This document shows, one piece after another, positions 938-14,000 of a stretch of DNA of 14,063 nucleotides. Positions within the stretch are counted from its first letter, which is position 1. Every line of letters begins with the position of its first letter. This stretch comes from Deltaproteobacteria bacterium (GTDB taxonomy: Bacteria > Desulfobacterota > BSN033 > UBA1163). Position numbers and translations under genes: made by a program. The notes beneath the pieces were generated by a model. It was not told the origin of the DNA. It ran no database searches and saw only the letters and a list, made by a program, of their open reading frames with translations. The DNA lies in contig VGRU01000078.1 of NCBI GenBank assembly GCA_016875255.1, forward strand, positions 1-14,063. Direction: 5' to 3'.

Positions 938-1561
938 ATGCCGGACAAAAACCTAAAAAAACAACTGATCATTGAAGCTGCGATAGACGTCTTCAGCAAA
1001 AACAATTTTCAAAATTCAACTATTTCTCAAATTGCTCAAAAGGCAGAGGTCGCCGAAGGAACGATCTATCAATACTTCAAAAATAAAGAGGACCTTTTCT
1101 TTTCCATTCCTGTCGAGAAAACAAAGGATTTTTGCAGGGAGCTTGAGTTGCATTTACAGGGGATCACGGGAGCGTTTAATAAGATCAGAAAATTTATCTG
1201 GTATTACCTCTATTTTTTTAAGATGAATCCTGAATACGGAAGGACCTTGATGCTTGAGATGAGGGTCAACAAAAGTTTTGCCAAGACCAAAGCCTACGAC
1301 TCATTTAAGAATTTAACCGACCGGATTCTCGAAATCATCAAAGAGGGGCAGGAGGAGGGTATCATTAGAAAGGATGTGAATATTTTTATCACCCGGCAAT
1401 TGATATTAGGCATTTTAGAGCATGTTGTTACCCGGTGGTTACTCAAGGGTGAACAGTATGATCTGCTGGAGCATTGTGATGAGGTGAATAAATTGATCAT
1501 CCATGGGATAGGTTTGACAACAGACCTGAATGGACTTAAGCGATGGAGGGAAGGGCAATGA
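938..1561 (+). CDS. TetR/AcrR family transcriptional regulator (FadR-like)
   Basis: This 207-residue protein has the length and layout of TetR-family regulators, which bind DNA as dimers and release it when a small ligand, often an acyl-CoA or aromatic compound, binds the C-terminal domain. The N-terminal helix-turn-helix is clear at residues 27-54: TISQIAQKAEVAEGTIYQYF followed by KNKEDLF, matching the family signature. The rest is helical and variable, as expected for the ligand domain. No clear Shine-Dalgarno precedes the ATG (only TCATCTCTCT), so translation may be weak. Its last four bases overlap the next gene as ATGA, which couples the two. Likely targets are its own promoter, through the palindrome at 854-897, and perhaps the divergent TAXI gene. 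The ligand is unknown. Confidence 0.92.
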   Translation: MPDKNLKKQLIIEAAIDVFSKNNFQNSTISQIAQKAEVAEGTIYQYFKNKEDLFFSIPVEKTKDFCRELELHLQGITGAFNKIRKFIWYYLYFFKMNPEYGRTLMLEMRVNKSFAKTKAYDSFKNLTDRILEIIKEGQEEGIIRKDVNIFITRQLILGILEHVVTRWLLKGEQYDLLEHCDEVNKLIIHGIGLTTDLNGLKRWREGQ

Positions 1562-3615
1562 AAAACTCAGGATCAAAATGGGTGGCTACGGATTGCACGA
1601 TTTGTTACCACAGTTGCGGGATGAATGTCCTGGTTGAGGATGGAAAGATCAAAAAAGTGGAGGGGCTCAAAGACCATCCCCTGAACAAAGGTAAACTCTG
1701 CCCCAAAGGTGAAAGAGCCATTGAGATGGTCTATCACCCTGATCGCCTCAAATATCCCCTGAAGAAGGTGAAGGGAAAGTGGGAGAGAGTGACGTGGGAC
1801 GATGCCCTGTCAGACATTGCTGATCAACTGCAGGGACTGAAAAAGGAATTTGGGCCGGAGATCCTGAGTATCTTTTCCGGGTCCATTGGAGTGGAAAACT
1901 TCGAGATGATGGAATTGGCCCAACGGTTTAAAGGAGCTTTTGGCTCTCCCAATTTCATCTCTGTAGAGGGGATCTGCTATCGAATGCGTATCCGGGCCAG
2001 GCAGATGACTTTTGGAAAGTATCCGGTTGAAGAAAAGGATACCAAACTTTATGTGCTCTGGGGCCACAATCCCGAGCAATCTGACTTTCCCCTGGATCTG
2101 GCCATTCAAGAAAATCTTCCGAAAGGATCGAAGATTGTAGTGATCGACCCCAAACGAATTCCCCTCGCAAAAAAGGCTGAAATGTATCTGCCCATTCGTC
2201 CAGGGACAGACGGAGCCCTTGCTCTCGCCTTGATGCACGTCATCATCAAGGAAAATCTTTTTGATAAGGATTTTATAGAGAAGTGGACTCATGGATTTGA
2301 TAAATTAGTGGTTCATATCGAACCTTATACGCCGGAATGGGCGGAGAAAATCACATGGATTCCGGCTGGAGACATCAAGAAACTTGCGCGGCTTTATGCC
2401 ACTGCAGAAAACGCCAGTATTTTCCAGGGGACGAATACTCAAGACCAGACGGCAAACGGAACGCAGAATAGCCGGGCCTTTGCCATCCTTCAAACGATCA
2501 CAGGAAATATCAACAACCCAGGGGGCTGGGTGGTGAGTCCCAGGCTTTCCCTGACAGGTTTGGGCATTACTACCGATAGAACTCCCATTGGCGCAGAAGA
2601 TTATTCACTCTTTTATGAGATCTGGGGCAGGAAAAGTCCTTACGGGCAGGTGATGTGTTTTCCTGACAGTGTCCCTGGTGTGATCAAGTCGCTGATCGTG
2701 ACCGGGGGAAATCCAGTTGTCAGCATGCCCGATTCGAATGCCTTCAGGGAGGCGATGAAAAGACTCGAACTTTTAGTCGTTCTGGATCTGTTTATGACAG
2801 AGACCGCCGAGCTTGCTCATTATGTGCTTCCGGGATGCACGCACCTTGAGAAGAACGGGCTGGCTTACAGTTACAACGTCTGTCACGGGATGCCCTACCT
2901 GATGCTGCGGAAAAAGGCGATTGAACCCCTGCACGAGAGCAAGTCAGAGTTTACCTTCTGGAAGGAATTGGCAAAGAAGATGGGGATGGCAGAAGTTTTC
3001 CCGTGGGAAACCGATGAAGAGGTGGTGGAACTCGAACTGAAGCCGTCCGGCCTGAGTTACAAGGAATTGAAGGAGGACAAGATAGCGGGCGCTTATTATA
3101 TGGCCAAAAAATACGGAATGGATGGATACGAGATAAAAGGTTTTTCAACCCCATCCAAAAAGATTGAGATCTATTCCGAAACTTTTGAAAAGGCGGGCTT
3201 CGATCCTCTTCCTACTTATCGGGAGCCGGATCAGAGTCCATTGAACAAAGACTTATACGGGAAATATCCGCTCATTCTCACAACGGGAGCGCGAATCCTT
3301 TATTATACGCACGGCCAGCATCGGAACATCCAGGATCTGAAGAAGCAGTGCCCGGAGCCCTTTGCGGAGATTCATCCCAAGGCGGCAGGGAAATATGGAG
3401 TGAAAAGCGGAGACACCATCGTGGTGGAGTCGAATCGGGGTCAGATCAAGGTCAAGGCTTTGTTGACGGAGGACATGGCGGAAGGGGTCGTGTCCATTCC
3501 TCATGGCTGGCCGGGAGAAGCAAACGTAAATATATTGACCGACCTTCATCTAAGAGAGCCGATCATGGGCTATCCCCAGATGAAATCCCAACTCTGTTCG
3601 ATTCGGAAGGCTTAG
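1558..3615 (+). CDS. Molybdopterin-dependent oxidoreductase, DMSO reductase family, with N-terminal [4Fe-4S]
   Basis: This is a 685-residue cytoplasmic oxidoreductase with a Mo- or W-bis-pyranopterin site. I chose the ATG at 1558 over the in-frame ATG at 1543 because GGAGGGAAGGG lies just before 1558 and the ATGA overlap with the regulator is typical coupling. An N-terminal [4Fe-4S] motif is present (Cys13, Cys16, Cys20, Cys48), followed by the conserved Lys50 in LCPKG. Family stretches include WGHNPEQSDFP, VVIDPKR, LPIRPGTDGALALAL, the VTGGNPVVSMPD region and a C-terminal domain with PHGWPGEANVN. The likely metal ligand is Cys140 (EGICYRM), the same index as Sec140 of E. coli formate dehydrogenase H. 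The following residue is Tyr, not the catalytic His of formate dehydrogenases, so formate is an unlikely substrate. No Tat signal is seen and no separate electron-transfer subunit lies next to it. The substrate is unknown. Confidence 0.85.
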   Translation: MKNSGSKWVATDCTICYHSCGMNVLVEDGKIKKVEGLKDHPLNKGKLCPKGERAIEMVYHPDRLKYPLKKVKGKWERVTWDDALSDIADQLQGLKKEFGPEILSIFSGSIGVENFEMMELAQRFKGAFGSPNFISVEGICYRMRIRARQMTFGKYPVEEKDTKLYVLWGHNPEQSDFPLDLAIQENLPKGSKIVVIDPKRIPLAKKAEMYLPIRPGTDGALALALMHVIIKENLFDKDFIEKWTHGFDKLVVHIEPYTPEWAEKITWIPAGDIKKLARLYATAENASIFQGTNTQDQTANGTQNSRAFAILQTITGNINNPGGWVVSPRLSLTGLGITTDRTPIGAEDYSLFYEIWGRKSPYGQVMCFPDSVPGVIKSLIVTGGNPVVSMPDSNAFREAMKRLELLVVLDLFMTETAELAHYVLPGCTHLEKNGLAYSYNVCHGMPYLMLRKKAIEPLHESKSEFTFWKELAKKMGMAEVFPWETDEEVVELELKPSGLSYKELKEDKIAGAYYMAKKYGMDGYEIKGFSTPSKKIEIYSETFEKAGFDPLPTYREPDQSPLNKDLYGKYPLILTTGARILYYTHGQHRNIQDLKKQCPEPFAEIHPKAAGKYGVKSGDTIVVESNRGQIKVKALLTEDMAEGVVSIPHGWPGEANVNILTDLHLREPIMGYPQMKSQLCSIRKA

Positions 3616-3917: not shown

Positions 3918-4124
3918 ATGTATTTTAGGGTTTTCTGCAATGCAAAGGAGATCGAAGCCCCGGATATGGAAACTGCCGAGCAAATTGTTAAGGATTCGCT
4001 ACGAGAATTTATCTGGTTGCTTCCTGTCACAGAGACTCCTGTAGCGCCTCCAGCGAGAGAACCTGGAAGACCCAAAGTAAACGAAAAGAAGGGTGGACAT
4101 GGTTCAATGACCATGCGCCATTAG
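3918..4124 (+). CDS. Hypothetical 68-residue protein upstream of bamB
   Basis: I do not recognise this protein. The start is well supported: GGGAGGTG lies seven bases before the ATG. The N-terminal half (residues 1-40) looks like a strand-turn-helix (MYFRVFCNAKEIEA, then a helical METAEQIVKDSLREFIW). The C-terminal half is Pro/Arg/Lys rich (APPAREPGRPKVNEKKGG) and probably disordered. It contains a GRPK motif reminiscent of an AT-hook. There is no signal peptide, membrane segment or CxxC motif. It does not end in GG, so it is not a MoaD/ThiS-type carrier. It sits 136 bp upstream of bamB on the same strand and could be the first gene of that transcript. The ribosome-binding site makes translation likely, but a small spurious ORF is not excluded. 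Confidence 0.55.
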   Translation: MYFRVFCNAKEIEAPDMETAEQIVKDSLREFIWLLPVTETPVAPPAREPGRPKVNEKKGGHGSMTMRH

Positions 4125-4260: not shown

Positions 4261-6219
4261 ATGAGGTACGCAGAGACAGGGTATGACTTAGAAATTGATC
4301 TGTCACGGGGAAGCATCGATAAGGTAGAGACCGATCCAAGAGAAACGGCATTGTATTTGGGGGGCAATGGCATCGCCGCGAAGCGGCTATTTGATCGGGT
4401 TCCTCCGGGGACCGATCCGTTTTCTCCAGATAACCTGCTCATCTTCGGGAACGGTCTTCTGAACGGCACACCCGTTCCAGGTGCAAACCGCGTCGCGGTC
4501 AATACGATTGCTCCGGTGAACGGATTGATGGGCCATTCACTCATGGGCGGAATGTTCGGGCCGGAGCTGAAACTGGCCGGATGGGACAGAATCGTCCTTC
4601 GGGGAAAGGCGCCCGACCTGGTCTACATAACGATACACAATGACAGGGTGGAGATACGCGACGCCAGGCACCTCCGGGGAAAAGGCATGTATGATACGGC
4701 CCGGTTGATCAAGGAGGAGTTGAAGGACAACAGGGCCTGGGTGGCTGCCATTGGTCCGGCCGGCGAACACAGGGCTTATTTGGCTTCGATTGATTGCGGC
4801 AATTCGAGCGCCGCTCGAACGGTCGGGCCGGTCATGGGAGATAAAAACGTAAAGGCGATCGCCGTCCGTGGAACAAAAGACGTGAATCTCGCCCACCCCG
4901 CAGAACTCTGGGAGATGTGCTCACGCCTGAGGAAGGAACTTGATGCGAACCCGAATGTCGGGGATTGGATGGCCGTTGATGAAGATGACAGCTTCCATCA
5001 CAACAATTTCTCATGGGGCAATGCCCGCGTGCGCCGAAAGACCTTCTGGAGCGCTTCTCTCGAAGAGAGATGGCGGAACCTGAAGCACGACCACATGAGC
5101 CGCCAGACAGGCTGCTGGAACTGCCCGAAGGCATGCCACAACGTCATTCAGTGGCCGAACCGCAGAAGATTTTCCTATAAGTGTTATGGAAAAGACACCT
5201 ATCACATGGCTGCCTTCCAGGAATTGGACTTCACCTACGAGATCCTCCCTATTGCTCAGGACTTAGGGCTTGACTCCTACTCCACCCCCCAGACCATCGC
5301 CTTCGCCCTTGAGCTTCTGGAGGCCGGGATTCTGGCGGAAAAAGACTTTCCAGGGATGCCCTCCGACGTGAGGGGAAGATTCTATTATCTCATTCATAAA
5401 ATGGCCTTTAGAGAGGACATTGGAGATATCCTGGCGGATGGCGTCTCCCGGGCAGCGGCGCGGATCGGCAAGGGCGCTGAGAAATTCGATCACAACACGG
5501 TCAAGAAATTCGAACAGCTGCCCATCAAGCTCGGCAAACTCAATCCGGCCTATTTCCTGATGATCGCCACCGGTGAGGATATGGCGATCACCCAGATCGA
5601 AGGCTCCTTCCCGCAAGACCCGATCACTGATCCGGAGCTGAAGGAAGAATTCATCAGAAAGTGGGTCGCGGTCCCGGATAAGAAGTTTGCAGAGTGGTTC
5701 CGGCAGTGGGAGAAACGCGATCAGTTACCCGACGATGCCATGGTCGCTATCGTTGATTGGAATGAGTGCATGCACTACCTGGATGATTCCCTGGGGTTTT
5801 GCGGATTCGTGTCCTCATTCAGGGGCCAGTTTGGCGGCACCACAGGATATCACGTATGGAATATGCCGCAGGTCATCACCCTCGCATCGGGGATGAATTT
5901 TGACAAAGGCAGGCTATGGGAATGCTTCCAGAGGAACCGGAATCTGGTCAGAGCCCTCAACGCGAGATTGGGCCTGAGAAGGTTCATGGAGAGGCCGCCG
6001 GAAGATCACTGGGCGGTCAGAAACGAGGAGTATGAGCAGCAACTGCTGAGCAAATATTATGACTTTAAAGGCTGGACCTTTGATGGGATTCCCACCAAAG
6101 AGACCCTGGAGAAATTGAACTTGGGCTACGTGGCGGATGACCTCATCAAGAGGGGCGTTTTGAACGGGAATGAAGTGACCGCCCTCAACGATGCCAGGGC
6201 CAAGAAGGGGAAGGAATAA
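4261..6219 (+). CDS. bamB: BamB-like tungsten acyl-CoA reductase (AOR family), catalytic subunit of a class II benzoyl-CoA reductase-type complex
   Basis: This 652-residue protein belongs to the aldehyde ferredoxin oxidoreductase superfamily and resembles BamB, which reduces the aromatic ring of benzoyl-CoA at a W-bis-pyranopterin without ATP. The start MRYAETGYDLEIDL and the C-terminal KGWTFDGIPTKETLEKL and DLIKRG match my recollection of Geobacter metallireducens BamB, as does the length (about 650). The [4Fe-4S] ligands are Cys285, Cys288, Cys292 (CWNCPKAC) and Cys514 (DSLGFCGF). Cys308 lies 16 residues after Cys292, matching the W-ligand Cys of BamB, and His246 lies 62 residues before Cys308, matching its catalytic His. 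Two other pocket residues of BamB (a Glu and a His just upstream) appear as Met237 and Glu241, so the substrate may differ. AGGGGT precedes the ATG. BamC follows. The enzyme should be cytoplasmic. Confidence 0.85.
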   Translation: MRYAETGYDLEIDLSRGSIDKVETDPRETALYLGGNGIAAKRLFDRVPPGTDPFSPDNLLIFGNGLLNGTPVPGANRVAVNTIAPVNGLMGHSLMGGMFGPELKLAGWDRIVLRGKAPDLVYITIHNDRVEIRDARHLRGKGMYDTARLIKEELKDNRAWVAAIGPAGEHRAYLASIDCGNSSAARTVGPVMGDKNVKAIAVRGTKDVNLAHPAELWEMCSRLRKELDANPNVGDWMAVDEDDSFHHNNFSWGNARVRRKTFWSASLEERWRNLKHDHMSRQTGCWNCPKACHNVIQWPNRRRFSYKCYGKDTYHMAAFQELDFTYEILPIAQDLGLDSYSTPQTIAFALELLEAGILAEKDFPGMPSDVRGRFYYLIHKMAFREDIGDILADGVSRAAARIGKGAEKFDHNTVKKFEQLPIKLGKLNPAYFLMIATGEDMAITQIEGSFPQDPITDPELKEEFIRKWVAVPDKKFAEWFRQWEKRDQLPDDAMVAIVDWNECMHYLDDSLGFCGFVSSFRGQFGGTTGYHVWNMPQVITLASGMNFDKGRLWECFQRNRNLVRALNARLGLRRFMERPPEDHWAVRNEEYEQQLLSKYYDFKGWTFDGIPTKETLEKLNLGYVADDLIKRGVLNGNEVTALNDARAKKGKE

Positions 6220-6361: not shown

Positions 6362-6910
6362 GTGGACAGCAATGGGAAGAAAACAAGAATCGTCAAAGAC
6401 ATAAAGGTGGATACCAAGAAATGCGCGGGCTGCAGGGCGTGCGAGATAGCGTGTTCCGCGTTCCACGCCGTACCGAAATTTAGCTCGGTTAATTCCGCAC
6501 GTTCCCGGATCATGGTCGTCATGGACGAAGTTCGAGATATCTTCGTGCCGATACGGGCCGGCGACTATGCCCAGGCGGAATGTAACGGCAGAAACCGTTA
6601 CGTGATCGACGGCAAGGAGTACGACGAATGCACCTTCTGCCCGGCCTCCTGCCCGTCCAGGGACGCCTTCAAAGACCCCGATTCCGGCTTTCCCCTCAAA
6701 TGCGATATGTGTGAGGACGTGCCGCCCCTGGAAAAGCCTATGTGCGTGGACGCATGCACGTTTGGCGCCTTGACGTACGAAGAAAGGGAAGAGGCAGTAG
6801 AGGCGGAACCGCAGAAGCGTGAGGAGATGGAAATCGGCTTAAAATCATTGATCAAGAAATACGGACTGAAGAAAGTGACGGATACGATTGCCCGGGTCTC
6901 AAAGGAATGA
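6362..6910 (+). CDS. bamC: BamC-like ferredoxin subunit with several [4Fe-4S] clusters
   Basis: This 182-residue protein is the electron-transfer partner expected next to BamB, passing low-potential electrons to the tungsten subunit. Cysteines are arranged as in multi-cluster ferredoxins: Cys21, Cys24, Cys27 and Cys31 (CAGCRACEIAC), Cys90, Cys93 and Cys97 (CTFCPASC), Cys114 and Cys117 (CDMC), then Cys128 and Cys132. That is enough for three [4Fe-4S] clusters, as described for BamC. An extra Cys74 is also present. The C-terminal 45 residues are charged and helical and carry no cysteines. The start is GTG, supported by GGAAGGGG about six bases upstream. There is no Tat signal, which fits a cytoplasmic complex rather than an exported DmsB/PsrB-type subunit. 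Confidence 0.83.
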   Translation: MDSNGKKTRIVKDIKVDTKKCAGCRACEIACSAFHAVPKFSSVNSARSRIMVVMDEVRDIFVPIRAGDYAQAECNGRNRYVIDGKEYDECTFCPASCPSRDAFKDPDSGFPLKCDMCEDVPPLEKPMCVDACTFGALTYEEREEAVEAEPQKREEMEIGLKSLIKKYGLKKVTDTIARVSKE

Positions 6911-6925
6911 GAGCGATTGCTCTTT

Positions 6926-6994
6926 GATTACAGCCCTGCCTGCCGGCAGGCAGGGATTATGAAACGATTACTCCGATTAGAAAAATCTGTGTAA
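6926..6994. repeat. Palindromic repeat in the bamC-bamE gap, CCTGCCTGCC family
   Basis: Bases 6934-6955 form a perfect 22-bp palindrome (CCCTGCCTGCC and its complement). It is preceded by GATTACA and followed by GGATTATGAAACGATTAC, and GATTACA pairs again with TGTGTAATC at about 6988-6996. The block matches the one upstream of bamB (4155-4200). It is transcribed within the operon and leaves only a short leader before the GTG of bamE. Confidence 0.7.
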
Positions 6995-7019
6995 TCTCTC
7001 TTTATGAGGTCATAGAGAA

Positions 7020-10000
7020 GTGGAAAAAGAACAGGTTGAACAGCTTTATAAAGGTCTCGCAGACAGTATTTGCAAGGGTTCCGCAGGCAGTCATGCTGGC
7101 GATGTGATGGTGGTTGGCGGAGGGGTCAGTGGTGTTCAAGCCTCTCTTGACCTCGCCGCCTCGGGTTTTAAGGTTTACCTGGTCGATAGGGCGCCTGCCA
7201 TTGGCGGCAAGATGGCCCAGTTAGACAAAACCTTTCCCACCAACGACTGCTCCATCTGAATACTTGCGCCCAAACTGGTCGAGGTCGGCCGGCATCCCAA
7301 CATAGAAATCCTCACCTATACTGAAGTGGACAGGGTGGAAGGAGAAGCAGGTGAATTCAACGTCACCCTGATCAAGAAGCCCAGATATATTGAAGAGGAA
7401 AAATGTACGGGTTGCGGCGCCTGCGTTGAGTACTGCCCAATCAAGGTCGAGGATGAATATAATCAAAACCTGTCTTTGAATAAGGCCATTCACATCTATT
7501 TCTCTCAGGCCGTTCCTCTGGTCACCTACATCGACGCTAAAAAATGCTCTTTCCTCAAAAATGAGAAATGCGCCATCTGTGAGGGGATCTGCAAGAATAA
7601 CGCTATCGATCTTTGCCAGAAGCCGGAAAAGATAGAAGTGGAGGTGGGGGCGATCGTGCTGTCTCCGGGTTATGAGATATTCGATCCGAAGCTTCAGGGC
7701 GACTATGGCTATGGAACGATGCAGAACGTGGTCACCAGTCTTGATTATGAACGAATCTTATGTTCCACCGGACCCTACGAAGGCGAGATCAGGCGGCCTT
7801 CGGACGGGAAGCATCCACACAAAATAGCGTGGATACAGTGCGTCGGCTCAAGACAGGTTAATCCCTTGGGAGGCAACAGCTACTGCTCAGCCGTATGCTG
7901 CGCCTATACCCAGAAGCAGGTGATCCTGACAAAAGACCATGACGCTCAGGCCGAGTGCACCATCTTTCATAACGATGTTCGGTCTTTTGGAAAAGATTTC
8001 GAACGATTCTATCAGAGGGCGGAAAAGCTTCCCGGGATTCGATTCATAAGAAGCTATGTCTCAATCGGAAAAGAGATACCCGAAACCAAGAATGTGACCC
8101 TACGCTACTCCACCTATGAGGACGGGGTCAAGGAGGAGGAGTTCGACCTCGTGGTATTATCCGTTGGACTAAACCCTCCCGATGATGTGAAGGACCTGGC
8201 TAAGAAGTTCAGCATCGATCTCACTCCGCAGGGATTCTGTAAAACCAATCCTGTCAATCCCATTGAGACCTCCCGCCGGGGAATTTTTGTGAGCGGGGCG
8301 TTTCAGGGCCCGATAGACATTCCGGAGTCGATCGTTACTGCCAGCGGGGCGGACGCCCTTTGCAGTCAGCTGCTTGCCTATCGCCGGGGGGAGCTGTCAA
8401 CGGAAAGGGAATATCCACAGGAAAGGGATGTCGCGGGAGAGAAGCCAAGGGTCGGGGTTTTCGTCTGCCATTGCGGAGCGAATATCGGAAGGGTGGTGAA
8501 CGTCCCTTCCGTAGCCGAATATGCTTCGGGCTTGAAGAATGTGGTCTATGCGGAGGAGGCCCTCTTTGCGTGCGCCACCGACACTGCAAAAAAAATAGCC
8601 GAAACGATCCGGGAGAAAGGGCTGAACCGTGTGGTCGTTGCCGCCTGCACTCCCAGGACGCATGAGCCCCTGTTCCGGGACACGCTTCGTGAAGGGGGAA
8701 TCAATCCATACTACTTTGAAATGGCCAATATCAGAGAGCACTGCTCCTGGGTCCACGCTCGAGAAAAAGAGATGGCCACCCGGAAGGCAAAGGATATCGT
8801 CAGGATGGCAGTGGCCAGGGCGGCCCGTCTCGAGCCGTTGAAGGAATTTGAGCTGCCGGTCGACAAGAGGGCGCTGGTGGTCGGCGGAGGCGTGGCCGGG
8901 ATGACGAGCGCTCTGAGTCTGGCCAACCAGGGATTCGAGGTGTACCTGGTGGAAAGGGATTTGGAATTAGGAGGAGTAGCCCGGAAGATTCATTTCACGC
9001 TTGAAGGGCTCGATGTCCAGGCATACGTGAATGGTCTCGTCAACAAGGTTTACCGGCACCCCCTGCTTCATGTCTCCACCGATGCGACCATCACAACCGT
9101 TTCCGGTTATGTGGGCAACTTCACCACCACAATGAAGGCGGGGTGGATGGCCAAGGAGATACGTCACGGCATAGCGATCATTGCGACCGGCGCCGAGGAA
9201 TACAAGCCCACCGAATATCTTTACGGGAAAGAAGACGGAGTATTGACCCAGCTGGAGTTGGGAGAGCGAATCGCCAGAGGAGAAGAAAGGGTGATCCACT
9301 CCCAGTGTCTGGTGATGATCCAGTGCGTAGGCTGCAGAAATGAAGAAAGAAATTACTGCAGCCGGGTATGCTGCGGCCATTCGGTCAAGAACGCTTTGAA
9401 GCTGAAAGAAATAAACCCCCGGATGGATATCTACATTCTCTTTCGGGATATGAGAACGTATGGCCTGGCGGAGGATTCTTACCGGGAAGCGGCAAACAGG
9501 GACGTGAAGTTCATCCGCTATGAGCCGGAGAGTAAACCCCAGGTGGAAGCTGTCGAGGAGGGGGGGCATCGTTTTCTGAGGGTTACCGTGGCCGATCCTG
9601 TTCTCGGTCAGAAGCTCGAAATAGATGCGGACCTGCTCGCGCTGGCTGCCGCTGTTGTTCCTTCGGCAACGAATGCTGAACTATCCCGTTTTTTCAAGGT
9701 CCCCTTAAATCCGGATGGGTTCTTCCAGGAAGCCCATGTGAAACTGAGACCTGTTGACTTTGCTGCAGAGGGCGTCTTCCTGTGCGGCATGGCCCACTAT
9801 CCCAAGCATATAGCCGAAACGATCAGCCAGGCTTATGGGGCTGCGGGACGGGCGGCGACGATTCTTTCAAAGGATTCTGTCACAGCCTCCGGGGCTGTTT
9901 GCGAGGTGAAGGAGAGCGACTGTGTCTCCTGCGGGGTTTGTCTTTCCGTGTGCGCGTGCGGCGCCATAGAGTTTCGTGGCACACCGCAAGGCAAGAAGGC

Positions 10001-10133
10001 CTGGGTGAATTCCGTTCTCTGTGAAGGAGATGGTCTCTGCACCGCAAAGTGTCCAACGGGGGCTATCCAGTTGAAGCACTTTACCGATGAGGAGCTGGTC
10101 GCCCAGATTGACACGGCGATTGGAGATGTATAG
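7020..10133 (+). CDS. bamE: BamE-like HdrA selenoprotein, two-FAD electron-bifurcating subunit (UGA codon 80 read as Sec)
   Basis: This 1037-residue flavin/iron-sulfur protein resembles the HdrA family and BamE, thought to bifurcate or confurcate electrons in the complex. The reading frame runs through TGA at 7257-7259. Upstream is TNDCSI and downstream [17 protein letters not shown], which together reproduce the CxxC stretch of HdrA with Sec80 replacing the second Cys (Cys77-x-x-Sec80). In order: Rossmann GGGVSG (33-38), Sec80, [4Fe-4S] ligands Cys129/132/135/139, a second set Cys176/184/187/191, IQCVGSR with YCSAVCC (272-294), CHCG (483-486), a second Rossmann GGGVAG (622-627), a second QCVGCR with YCSRVCC (768-785), and a C-terminal ferredoxin (Cys968/971/974/978; Cys1001/Asp1004/Cys1007/Cys1011). 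The GTG start has GAGGT nine bases upstream. The repeated modules suggest fusion of two HdrA units. I recognise the HdrA family with certainty; the assignment as BamE comes from context. Confidence 0.88.
7275..7292 (+). promoter_or_regulatory. Predicted bacterial SECIS hairpin in bamE
   Basis: Downstream of UGA (7257-7259), CUGGUC (7275-7280) pairs with GGCCGG (7287-7292). This is a 6-bp stem with two G-U pairs. The loop GAGGUC lies 22-27 bases after the UGA. The AGGUC in the loop resembles the SelB-binding loop of E. coli fdhF, which sits a similar distance from its UGA. It lies within the coding sequence, as usual for bacterial SECIS elements. Confidence 0.65.
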
Positions 10134-10428: not shown

Positions 10429-11196
10429 ATGAGCGCTGCCATTAAGTTTACCCCGAGAATCCTTGGTTTTGTGTGCCATTGGTGAGGATACGGCGCTGCT
10501 GACCTGGCTGGAGTTTCCAGACTGCAATATACGCCTGAGATCAGGATGGTCCGTGTCATGTGCACCGGCAGAGTCGACCCGGCGTTTATCCTCCGGGCTT
10601 TTTCAAACAGAACAGACGGGGTCTTTATCGGCGGTTGCTGGCCCGGCGAATGTCATTATCCTACTGAAGGGAACATCTATGCATTAAGCATGGCGCTTCT
10701 CATCAGGAAATTGTTGGAGCAGATAGGGGTGAACCCCCAGAGGTTAAAGCTGGAATGGGTCTCTGCGGCTGAAGGAATCCGTTTTGCCGAAGTGATGAAC
10801 AACGTCGTCAAAAAACTTCAGGAATTAGGGCCGATCGGGGAAGGGGAAGGAATAGAACAGAATGCTTTGACCTTCAGACTGAAAGCCGTGGAGAATTTGC
10901 TTCCCTATATTAAGCTGGTGGAAAGAGAGAGGCTGAGCGTGCGTTTTGAGACGGAAGAAAAAGTGATCGAATTTTTCAAGAGTGACGAAGGCGACCGGTT
11001 ATTCCGCGAATTGATTGCAGATCCATTGGCCATAAGCCAGATGATGCTCCTCCTGCGAGAAAACCCCCTTTCCGTAGGAGAAATCTTTGAGAGGTTAGGC
11101 TTGGACGCGTCCGAAATAAGGAGGCACCTTCACCGTTCCGTAAAACAGGGATTCGTCAAGTTCGATGAAGGCCAGAAGCGCTTTGCTCTCGCCTGA
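10429..11196 (+). CDS. bamF: BamF-like selenoprotein: MvhD/FrhD [2Fe-2S] domain fused to a winged-helix C-terminus (UGA codon 19 read as Sec)
   Basis: The gene encodes 255 residues when TGA at 10483-10485 is read as Sec19. The MvhD family carries a [2Fe-2S] cluster and links HdrA to an electron donor. The N-terminus PRILGFVCHW-Sec-GYGAADLAGVSRLQY is the family's signature, with Sec where the second Cys of CxxC normally stands (Cys16, Sec19). Then come VRVMCTGRVDPAF (Cys45) and GGCWPGECHY (Cys70, Cys75). The ATG at 10429 has GAAGGGGAAAG just upstream. Starting at the later in-frame ATG (10546) would delete the signature, so I reject it. Residues about 140-200 are helical. The C-terminal 45 residues (PLSVGEIFERLGLDASEIRRHL...) look like a winged helix. 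BamF is described as a selenocysteine-containing MvhD homologue, which fits. The gene is co-directional with bamE, though 295 bp away. Confidence 0.88.
10508..10520 (+). promoter_or_regulatory. Predicted SECIS hairpin in bamF
   Basis: CUGGA (10508-10512) pairs perfectly with UCCAG (10516-10520) around a GUU loop that starts 28 bases after the UGA (10483-10485). A slightly larger form pairs CUGG (10504-10507) with CCAG (10517-10520) around a nine-base loop. Position and a G at the loop start fit bacterial SECIS rules, but the loop differs from the one in bamE and is very short. Confidence 0.5.
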
Positions 11197-11488: not shown

Positions 11489-11944
11489 ATGATGGATAAC
11501 GATCGAATCGACCAGATTATTGATAAACATCAGGGGAATGCGAGCTCGCTGATTCAAATATTGTTGGAGATTCAGAAAGAAAACCGCTGGCTTTCCAAGG
11601 AGGTCTTAGGGAGGATCAGCGCGAAATTGCAGGTCCCGTTGAGCCGGATCCAGCATATGGTCACTTTTTATAAAGCCTTCAGTTTAGTTCCCAGGGGACG
11701 GCATGAAATTCACATTTGCATGGGGACGGCCTGTCATGTCCGTGGCGCGCCGCGTCTCCTCGACACGGTTCAGGATCTGATTAGAGTGAAACCGGGCGAA
11801 ACGGACTCGGATCTAAGATTCACCCTGGAGACGGTGAACTGCCTGGGCTGCTGTGCTTTAGGGCCCGTGATGGAAGTCGATGGGAAGTATCACGGTAAGG
11901 TGGCGCCCGCCGAGATAGGAAACGTGTTGAAAAAGTACGATTAA
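11489..11944 (+). CDS. bamG: BamG-like NuoE/HoxE-type [2Fe-2S] subunit
   Basis: This 151-residue protein matches NuoE, the 24-kDa subunit of complex I-type NADH dehydrogenase modules, and BamG in the Bam complex. It pairs with the NuoF-like subunit encoded next and carries one [2Fe-2S] cluster. The thioredoxin-like domain shows the ligands Cys77 and Cys82 (CMGTACHVRGA) and Cys118 and Cys122 (NCLGCCALGP). The N-terminal helical part holds the family signature (VPLSRIQHMVTFYKAFSL). Length is normal. Two ATGs stand side by side (11489 and 11492). AGGA directly abuts the first, so initiation may favour the second, which costs one residue. The role of moving electrons between NAD(H) and the rest of the complex is inferred from the family and the neighbours. 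Confidence 0.9.
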   Translation: MMDNDRIDQIIDKHQGNASSLIQILLEIQKENRWLSKEVLGRISAKLQVPLSRIQHMVTFYKAFSLVPRGRHEIHICMGTACHVRGAPRLLDTVQDLIRVKPGETDSDLRFTLETVNCLGCCALGPVMEVDGKYHGKVAPAEIGNVLKKYD

Positions 11945-12083: not shown

Positions 12084-14000
12084 ATGATGCCAAGGATAAA
12101 CTCACCTGACGAGTTAGAGAAAGTTAGAAACGGAATCGTGTCCCGGAGAGACCCTAACAGGACTTGTATTTCAATATGCGCCGGCACGGGTTGTCTTGCC
12201 TCTGGCGCAAATGAGGTGATCACCGCCTTTAAGGCAGAGATCGAAAAACAAGGTTTAAAGACTGCCGTGGATGCCAAAGGAACCGGTTGCCCTGGATTTT
12301 GCGAGAGAGGGCCGGTGGTAGTGATCTATCCTGAGGAAATCTGCTATCTCGAAGTCAAACCAGAAGATGTTCCCGAGATTGTCTCTCAGACCATCCAGAA
12401 GAAGGTGGTCGATCGTCTGCTCTATGTTGACCCGGCCACAGGCGAGAAGGCATCCCGTGAATCCGATATTCCCTTCTATAAGAATCAGGTGCGAAACATC
12501 ATCGGCAATAACATCAGGATTGATCCTAAGAACATCGATGACTATTTGGCGCTGGGCGGTTATTCTGCGTTAGCCAAAGTTCTCTTCCGGATGACCTCCG
12601 AACAGGTATTGAATGAAGTCAAAAAGGCAGACCTGAGAGGAAGGGGAGGGGGCGGTTTTCCCACGGGGAGAAAGTGGGAGGAATCTCGAAATGGACCTGA
12701 CGAAATAAAGTATGTGATCGTCAATGCCGATGAGGGGGACCCGGGGGCATTCATGGACAGGGCGCTCCTCGAAGGAAACCCTCACTCCATCCTTGAGGGG
12801 TTGACCATCGGAGCCTATGCCATCGGCTCCCACGAGGGCTATATTTACGTTCGTCAGGAATATCCCCTTGCCGTAGAGAATGTGACCATCGCTATCCAGC
12901 AGGCGGAGGAGCATGGTCTTCTTGGGAAAAATATTCTTGGCTCAGGCTTTGATTTCACCGTTAAAGTGCACCAGGGAGCCGGCGCTTTTGTCTCCGGCGA
13001 GTCGAGCGCTTTGATGACGGCATTGGAAGGCAGGGTAGGGGAGCCGAGGCCCAAATATATCCACACAGCCGTCAAGGGTCTATGGGAAAGACCCAGCGTT
13101 TTAAATAATGTTGAGACATGGGCCAATGTGCCGCTGATTATCAATAAAGGCGCTGACTGGTTTGCTCAGTTTGGAACCGAAGGGAGCAAGGGCACGAAGA
13201 TTTTCTCCCTGGTGGGCAAAATCAACAATACCGGCCTTGTGGAAGTGCCCATGGGCATCACCCTGAGAGATATTATCTATAAGGTGGGCGGCGGAATCCC
13301 CGGAGGCAAGAGGTTCAAGGCAGTGCAGACCGGCGGTCCGTCCGGAGGATGTATCCCTGAAGAACAGTTAGATATGAAAGTGGATTTTGATGAACTCACC
13401 AGGGCCGGTTCCATGATGGGTTCAGGCGGGATGATTGTCATGGACGAAGATACCTGCATGGTTGATGTCGCCAGGTACTTCCTTGACTTCCTCAGTGATG
13501 AATCGTGCGGCAAATGCGTTCCGTGCCGCGAGGGCATCAGGCAGATGTTCAAGATTCTATCCAATATCGGCAAAGGGAAGGGAAAAGAGGGCGACATCGA
13601 GCTTCTGGAGGAGCTGTCCGAGACAGCCAGGGAAGCTTCACTCTGCGCTTTGGGTAAGAGCGCTCCCAACCCGGTGCTCAGCACAATCCGCTACTTCAGA
13701 GAGGAATACGAGGCGCACATCAAAGAAAAGAGATGCCCGGCTTACTCCTGCAAGGAACTCCTCTCCTACCATATTGATCCGGAGAAGTGCCAGGCCTGTA
13801 TGACGTGCCTCAAAAAATGCCCTGCAGAGGCGATCAGCGGCGGGAAGAAACAGGTCCATGTCGTTGACCAGGAGAAATGTACGAAGTGCGGGACATGTTT
13901 TGAAGTTTGTCCTCCTCGCTTTGGCGCGGTGAAGAAAATTTCAGGCGAGCCTGTTCCGCCTCCACTGCCTGAAGAAGCAAGAATGATCCTGAGAGAGTAA
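12084..14000 (+). CDS. bamH: BamH-like NuoF/HydB-type flavoprotein with extra ferredoxin domains
   Basis: This 638-residue subunit should bind NAD(H) and FMN and connect them through iron-sulfur clusters to the rest of the complex. Domains in order: an N-terminal thioredoxin-like [2Fe-2S] domain (Cys32, Cys37, Cys69, Cys73); the NuoF core with GRGGGGFPTG (186-195) and VNADEGDPGAFMDR for nucleotide and FMN binding; the SLBB-like part; the N3-type [4Fe-4S] cluster (Cys475, Cys478, Cys481, Cys521); and a C-terminal two-cluster ferredoxin (Cys569/572/575/579 and Cys599/602/605/609). This is the long form seen in bifurcating hydrogenase HydB and BamH, rather than the 440-residue complex I NuoF. 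ATGs lie at 12084 and 12087. AAGGGAG (12076-12082) suits the second slightly better. It pairs with the NuoE-like subunit upstream. Confidence 0.9.
   Translation: MMPRINSPDELEKVRNGIVSRRDPNRTCISICAGTGCLASGANEVITAFKAEIEKQGLKTAVDAKGTGCPGFCERGPVVVIYPEEICYLEVKPEDVPEIVSQTIQKKVVDRLLYVDPATGEKASRESDIPFYKNQVRNIIGNNIRIDPKNIDDYLALGGYSALAKVLFRMTSEQVLNEVKKADLRGRGGGGFPTGRKWEESRNGPDEIKYVIVNADEGDPGAFMDRALLEGNPHSILEGLTIGAYAIGSHEGYIYVRQEYPLAVENVTIAIQQAEEHGLLGKNILGSGFDFTVKVHQGAGAFVSGESSALMTALEGRVGEPRPKYIHTAVKGLWERPSVLNNVETWANVPLIINKGADWFAQFGTEGSKGTKIFSLVGKINNTGLVEVPMGITLRDIIYKVGGGIPGGKRFKAVQTGGPSGGCIPEEQLDMKVDFDELTRAGSMMGSGGMIVMDEDTCMVDVARYFLDFLSDESCGKCVPCREGIRQMFKILSNIGKGKGKEGDIELLEELSETAREASLCALGKSAPNPVLSTIRYFREEYEAHIKEKRCPAYSCKELLSYHIDPEKCQACMTCLKKCPAEAISGGKKQVHVVDQEKCTKCGTCFEVCPPRFGAVKKISGEPVPPPLPEEARMILRE

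Follow-up and report, generated by a model that had tools for sequence, protein, structure and literature searches.

The window, by which we mean the whole stretch of 14,063 nucleotides analysed here (contig VGRU01000078.1, Deltaproteobacteria bacterium), carries a gene cluster with all genes on the same strand:

938-1561, + strand: TetR-like gene
1543-3615, + strand: molybdopterin oxidoreductase (closest to formate dehydrogenase alpha in NCBIfam, 399.5 of 666 bits, under the cut-off)
4261-6219, + strand: bamB-like subunit of the AOR family (match to BamB of 4z3w, E 4.7e-207)
6362-6910, + strand: bamC-like ferredoxin subunit (weak Fer4 matches; follows bamB in relatives)
7020-10133, + strand: hdrA/bamE-like gene for a protein of 1037 residues that joins two HdrA modules, interrupted by a single in-frame TGA (translation, 5odc alignment, Pfam FAD and Fer4 domains)
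10429-11196, + strand: flpD/mvhD (bamF-like) gene, also a predicted selenocysteine (Sec) gene (Pfam FlpD 160 bits; translation)
11489-11944, + strand: NuoE-like subunit (Pfam 2Fe-2S_thioredx)
12084-14000, + strand: NuoF-like subunit (Pfam Complex1_51K and others; NCBIfam nuoF_fam 472 bits, under the cut-off)

The window ends 63 bases beyond the NuoF-like gene. A close homologue of the molybdopterin oxidoreductase sits before bamB in two related loci, L028 and L030. A small ORF at 3918-4124 has no NCBIfam match, and the stretch is about 90% identical in L028.

The hdrA-like frame runs from a GTG start at 7020 to a TAG stop at 10131-10133. Translation showed that its sole in-frame stop is the TGA at 7257-7259, codon 80, directly preceded by the peptide TNDCSI; an earlier note on this DNA had rightly described this TGA as splitting one continuous HdrA protein. 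As the note also foresaw for gene callers, mechanical ORF calling turns the gene into a 79-aa ORF (7020-7259) and a 935-aa ORF from a GTG at 7326, and thus cuts a central electron-transfer protein in two. Three stretches of the protein align with the HdrA of 5odc, in keeping with HdrA domain architecture; we take this structure to come from Methanothermococcus thermolithotrophicus. That organism is given for 5ODH in a part of PMC12350162, and a part of PMC9012536 gives M. wolfeii as the organism of the 5odc HdrA. The NCBIfam model hetero_SS_HdrA2 scored 952 bits on the product, under its cut-off of 1100, and the gene stands in a BamE context, adjoining bamC-, flpD- and nuoE/F-like genes.

The BamB-like subunit keeps Cys322, the W ligand, and His260. 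Glu251, His255, Glu257 and His260 are termed invariant in a passage of PMC12096430; three of these four Zn/proton-relay residues are absent from the subunit, Glu251 falling in a gap, His255 being replaced by E and Glu257 by D. The EDDSFHH form of the window protein was found in 10 of 48 aligned bamB rows (the window, L028, L030, L031, L033, L038, L079, L080, L096 and L102). The nearest genome (G001, which shares 38% of sampled 31-letter words) encodes two proteins closely related to the window's BamB, with identities of 98% and 55%. The absence of three relay residues makes a benzoyl-CoA reductase function doubtful, and the cluster may serve a substrate other than benzoyl-CoA. We found no significant match to bamD within the window (best E 0.15), and the gene is absent between bamC and hdrA (6906-7020). 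In L028, a 92% relative, bamD measures 1.16 kb, and its 3' end is present in L027; the contigs of G001 likewise break inside bamD. The missing bamD could reflect a deletion or an assembly fault, or the gene could lie outside the window.

Codon 80 in relatives and the selenium machinery

The codon under study is the following:

7257-7259, + strand: UGA predicted to be read as selenocysteine, residue 80 (codon counts in relatives; aligned with Cys197 of 5odc and X of 9sfi_A)

We aligned the best 80 of 186 relatives from named genomes, giving 81 rows with the window added; none of the six seed peptides of the relative scan includes residue 80. Codon 80 was TGA in 62 of the 80 relatives, TGC in 12 and TGT in 6, with no other codon, although the compared genes share kinship and the counts are not independent. 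By this alignment, a check that the earlier note had proposed, the UGA of the window occupies a site with either Cys or predicted Sec in the BamE/HdrA-type proteins of all 80 loci, as in a selenoprotein of the HdrA family. Another set, 39 loci from the genomes close to G001, overlaps the first (L001 and L027 are one gene) and gave 21 TGA, 9 TGC, 5 TGT and 4 others. These four are all distant rows: L004 and L005 were unaligned, L007 has CAT and L009 has GCC; the alignment is weak for the first three (scores 127-146), and L009 scores higher (363) with a different motif. Two earlier tallies were replaced by the alignment tally, one by strict motif (57 TGA, 13 TGC, 8 TGT and a spurious CCG, with a spurious L073 row) and one based on tblastn that left 34 of 110 rows uncalled. 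TGA at codon 80 also occurs in loci titled Desulfosporosinus, Desulfotomaculum, Dehalococcoidia and Chloroflexi, so that the range of some archaea and Desulfobacterota that had been named for Sec-containing HdrA is too narrow. We also noticed one in-frame TGA in L005 (G001:C121:20066-22621); the match of this distant HdrA relative spans query residues 184-1035, and its TGA is hence at a site other than residue 80.

All four selenium genes, selA, selB, selC and selD, were detected above the cut-offs in G001, selC with 76.5 bits (gathering score 47), and selD of this genome itself carries one TGA. Absence of selB or selC had been named as evidence that would refute Sec; both are present in the nearest genome, to which alone this check applies. 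Among 30 genomes, G001 and relatives, selB was above the cut-off in 28, selA in 27, selC in 24 and selD in 23; the selC matches in G010 and G027 exceed the cut-off by no more than 2 bits and may be other tRNAs, and the selC model is also above the cut-off in 5 of 14 control genomes. A search of the plasmid collection gave no match.

Hairpins downstream of the two UGA codons

Downstream of codon 80 lies a hairpin within the coding region:

7275-7292, + strand: SECIS hairpin, stem 7275-7281 / 7286-7292, apical loop AGGU at 7282-7285 (fold, conservation, pair counts)

It folds with a 7-bp stem at -10.2 kcal/mol, 15 bases from the UGA to the stem and 22 to the loop. The loop had been proposed as AGGUC; the minimum free energy (MFE) loop is AGGU, the C being paired, and the SECIS assignment itself is borne out by the conservation described below. 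Taken singly, the window hairpin is unexceptional: shuffled sequences fold as well (z 0.55 and -0.18 for two cuts), the MFE is close to what synonymous recodings give (P 0.49), and it is the intact 7-bp stem that departs from the recodings (P 0.021). The SECIS status of the hairpin is not demonstrable from the window sequence alone, and single-sequence folding was set aside as proof in favour of comparison across relatives. An Rfam search of the window gave four matches, all under the gathering scores and irrelevant.

For the comparison we used 71 non-redundant TGA genes and 32 Cys genes, identical stretches and rows short of upstream sequence having been removed. The 7-bp stem is intact in 70 of the 71 TGA genes versus 2.9% of 2840 recodings; in the Cys genes it is intact in 1 of 32, with 1.25% among their recodings. 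We give no P value for this conservation because related genes are not independent. Codons +6 to +11 of the TGA genes are almost without synonymous variation (CTG in 70; GTC in 68 and GCC in 3; GAG in 71; GTC in 70 and GCC in 1; GGC in 57 and GAC in 14; CGG in 69), and the flanking codons vary. The middle stem pair is U.G in 54 genes, U-A in 14 and C-G in 3, pairing being kept despite changes of Gly to Asp or Val to Ala. A figure legend of PMC13188914 lists, for bacterial SECIS elements, a loop of 3-9 nt with G in the first two positions, a stem of at least 4 bp, a spacing of 16-37 nt and an MFE of at most -7.5. Applied without an upper stem limit, these bounds include the window hairpin (loop AGGU, 7 bp, spacing 22, -10.2 kcal/mol); they also include 42% of the window's own recodings, so that the test is weak alone. 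They include 67 of the 71 TGA genes versus 33% of 710 recodings, and 2 of the 32 Cys genes, with 12% of Cys-gene recodings. Because of its conservation among relatives we count the hairpin as real and, on this comparative ground, as a true bacterial SECIS element.

The neighbouring flpD-like gene has a similar arrangement:

10483-10485, + strand: second UGA, predicted Sec in VCHWUGYGAADLAG (of the 81 rows including the window, 75 could be assessed and 72 have TGA)
10508-10520, + strand: candidate SECIS hairpin of flpD, CUGGAGUUUCCAG (codons conserved in 66 Sec flpD genes)

At this candidate hairpin the 66 genes, a non-redundant set, have TCC in 66 of 66 and GCT in all 61 that have Ala; the hairpin is present in just 6 of 12 MFE folds listed, and its conservation was judged from these codon counts. 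Among the 63 rows with Sec in hdrA (window included), flpD was assessable in 58 and has TGA in every one; the other 5 are without flpD above the score limit. The 18 rows with Cys in hdrA have an flpD with TGA in 14 cases, Cys in 3 and an unalignable sequence in 1. On these counts Sec is more constant in FlpD than in HdrA.

These comparisons of codon and RNA signal point to decoding of the UGA at codon 80 of a BamE-like double HdrA by SelB and tRNA-Sec, which the AGGU-loop hairpin at 7275-7292 would steer; the adjacent flpD product would carry Sec too. The apparent stop is almost certainly read as selenocysteine, and we hold the Sec/SECIS reading as a whole to be very probable. A sequencing or assembly error at the TGA, or a decayed gene, could be suspected from the absence of bamD alongside hdrA, a possible assembly fault. 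However, the TGA recurs at a single codon across many genomes, which refutes such an error: 62 of 80 relatives share it and the other 18 have Cys there, the frame is otherwise open over 1037 codons, and the orthologue in G001, 95% identical, has one TGA at the same codon 80. We give this explanation practically no weight, and the same is true of the idea that the organism generally reads UGA as sense or suppresses it with another tRNA. Two frames of the window, hdrA and flpD, do require readthrough, but TGA is also an ordinary stop here, terminating the TetR, bamC-like and flpD genes, which makes general recoding unlikely; moreover, the hairpin is conserved in the TGA genes and not in the Cys genes, and selB and tRNA-Sec are present in the nearest genome.

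A further alternative is that the UGA is decoded and serves mainly in regulation, low selenium turning it into a stop and so tuning operon output. This is possible in principle, and the joint occurrence of UGA in hdrA and flpD in all 58 assessable Sec-hdrA rows would suit it. Against it, 18 of 80 relatives have Cys80, and the Cys genes as a group are without the hairpin (1 of 32, wider set), indicating that the feature kept is a Cys-like residue; we regard a mainly regulatory use as very unlikely.

Residue 80 and its proposed Fe-S cluster partner in the second module

In the structure alignment the counterpart of residue 80 is Cys197 in the 5odc HdrA; 9sfi_A has X there, a non-standard residue that we infer to be Sec. 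In a section of PMC9012536, Cys197 is described as a ligand in trans, serving the N-terminal Fe-S cluster of the partner HdrA, and in fused HdrAs one module is said to have Cys197 and the other the N-terminal domain. The window protein agrees with this division, although its two parts come in the opposite order to those fusions. The first module, residues 31-403 (equivalent to 148-514 of 5odc), contains residue 80 and is without an N-terminal domain. The second begins with the putative partner:

8439-8957, + strand: Fe-S domain at the N-terminus of the second module (residues 474-646), equivalent to 5odc residues 2-174

Cys 483, 485, 518 and 543 of this domain are kept in 81 of 81 rows, and Cys575 in 57. 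The stretch of the second module equivalent to that round residue 80 has no Cys in 80 of 81 rows; in the exception, L089, the Cys lies further downstream. Thus, the second module has an N-terminal domain and lacks the equivalent Cys of its own, which suggests that Sec80 would be a selenolate ligand of that cluster, at the position of the cysteine that, in HdrA dimers, ligates the partner's N-terminal [4Fe-4S] cluster. Here a single chain would supply both partners, the second module taking the place of the other HdrA, and the cluster bound by the selenolate would belong to the electron path around the bifurcating FAD. This assignment draws on homology and on the description in one paper, as far as cited (PMC9012536), and we favour it with considerable room for doubt.

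The earlier note had instead placed Sec near the first FAD, changing the chemistry there. Residue 80 does lie within the thioredoxin-reductase-like, FAD-binding part of HdrA. However, the aligned Cys197 is the trans Fe-S ligand described in the quoted section of PMC9012536, which makes ligation of a cluster likelier than direct flavin chemistry, and an action of Sec80 at or near the first FAD in bifurcation seems improbable to us. The position of the cluster on the electron path is given in two ways: a legend of PMC9012536 puts the N-terminal HdrA cluster on the route from FAD to ferredoxin, and a passage of PMC12350162 puts the N-terminal clusters on the entry route in Elp-Hdr, so that the two sources, in these places, disagree on the cluster's side of the flavin. 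Binding of an Fe-S cluster by the selenium of HdrA is a testable question. A narrow literature search found no paper on a selenolate ligand in heterodisulfide reductase, which is not proof of novelty.

Parts of both modules of the window protein align with the 5odc HdrA. The latter is a single HdrA with Cys that donates the ligand to a second chain, according to the same section of PMC9012536, whereas the window protein has two complementary modules fused. The HdrA of 9sfi, with its X exactly at the position of residue 80, is likewise single-module, unlike the double HdrA of the window.

Known Sec-containing systems, residue 89 and the history of codon 80

A paper of 2004 reportedly names, in its title, Sec proteins in the benzoate metabolism of Desulfococcus multivorans. 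Part of PMC5109826 lists five genes in which a UGA precedes a SECIS, one of them being BamE of this organism (dmul_C24500/10); like the window gene it combines UGA with SECIS, and it is spread over two gene numbers. The novelty implied for the window gene was overstated, as UGA/SECIS in BamE is already published for D. multivorans in that source; the window gene adds a member, not a new kind. The likeness is one of description, and the D. multivorans gene sits in a cluster that the source assigns to benzoyl-CoA reduction, whereas the BamB-like subunit of the window is without three of four relay residues. Sec-HdrA (CxxU motif) and Sec-FrhD/MvhD are listed selenoprotein families of bacteria and archaea, often clustered, in parts of PMC1794560, PMC13188914 and PMC2702500. 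The operons stressed there are frhA/frhD/hdrA; in the window, HdrA and FlpD adjoin a BamB-like enzyme and NuoE/F-like subunits.

The Geobacteraceae BamE-type HdrAs at L044, L049, L056, L067 and L105 belong to the same family, with flpD and nuoE/F-like neighbours in 5 of 5 loci and bamB/bamC in reach in 3 of 5. Unlike the window they have TGC (Cys) at codon 80 and Cys at residue 89, and their flpD keeps Sec (TGA), which agrees with the earlier note, by which Sec is not a standard feature of Geobacter BamE and is reported for BamF of that complex. They belong to the Cys genes, which as a group do not retain the hairpin. Why many lineages use Sec in HdrA while the examined Geobacteraceae loci use Cys is open to test.

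Residue 89 (window 7284-7286) follows the state of residue 80. In the 81 rows, Sec80 occurs with Val in 62 and Ala in 1, and Cys80 with Cys in 18 of 18; in the wider hairpin set the Sec genes have V in 70 and A in 1, and the Cys genes C in 28, V in 2, F in 1 and T in 1. Aligned structures with Cys197 have Val at this position, indicating that Cys89 is not required wherever Cys80 stands. The SECIS loop overlies codons 88-89 (GAG GTC), which offers a simple cause for the pattern on the Sec side. We tentatively propose, as a combined statement that may well be wrong, that Sec80 is a selenolate ligand of the [4Fe-4S] cluster between two fused modules of one chain and that Sec80 and Cys89 are mutually exclusive owing to the loop over codons 88-89. 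If so, the identity of a residue close to a metal site would be set by an RNA signal, and going from Sec to Cys or back would swap U...V and C...C; the extent to which a coding-region RNA signal dictates neighbouring residues is testable.

The tree of the 81 rows needs three Sec/Cys changes, the window's clade of five Sec rows being grouped with 15 Cys rows; trees of the near stretch and of the remainder need 3 and 2. Forcing all Cys rows into a single clade gave p-AU 0.0171, and all Sec rows 0.0317 and 0.0349. Sec regain and repeated Sec loss are both possible. Regain by gene conversion from a Sec paralogue was considered and is not borne out, as the tree of residues 45-120 with the trait masked is compatible with the Cys-row kinship (p-AU 0.318; 80 of 81 rows, one being too short). 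Over these residues the window is 82-86% identical to its Sec relatives and 74-82% to its Cys kin.
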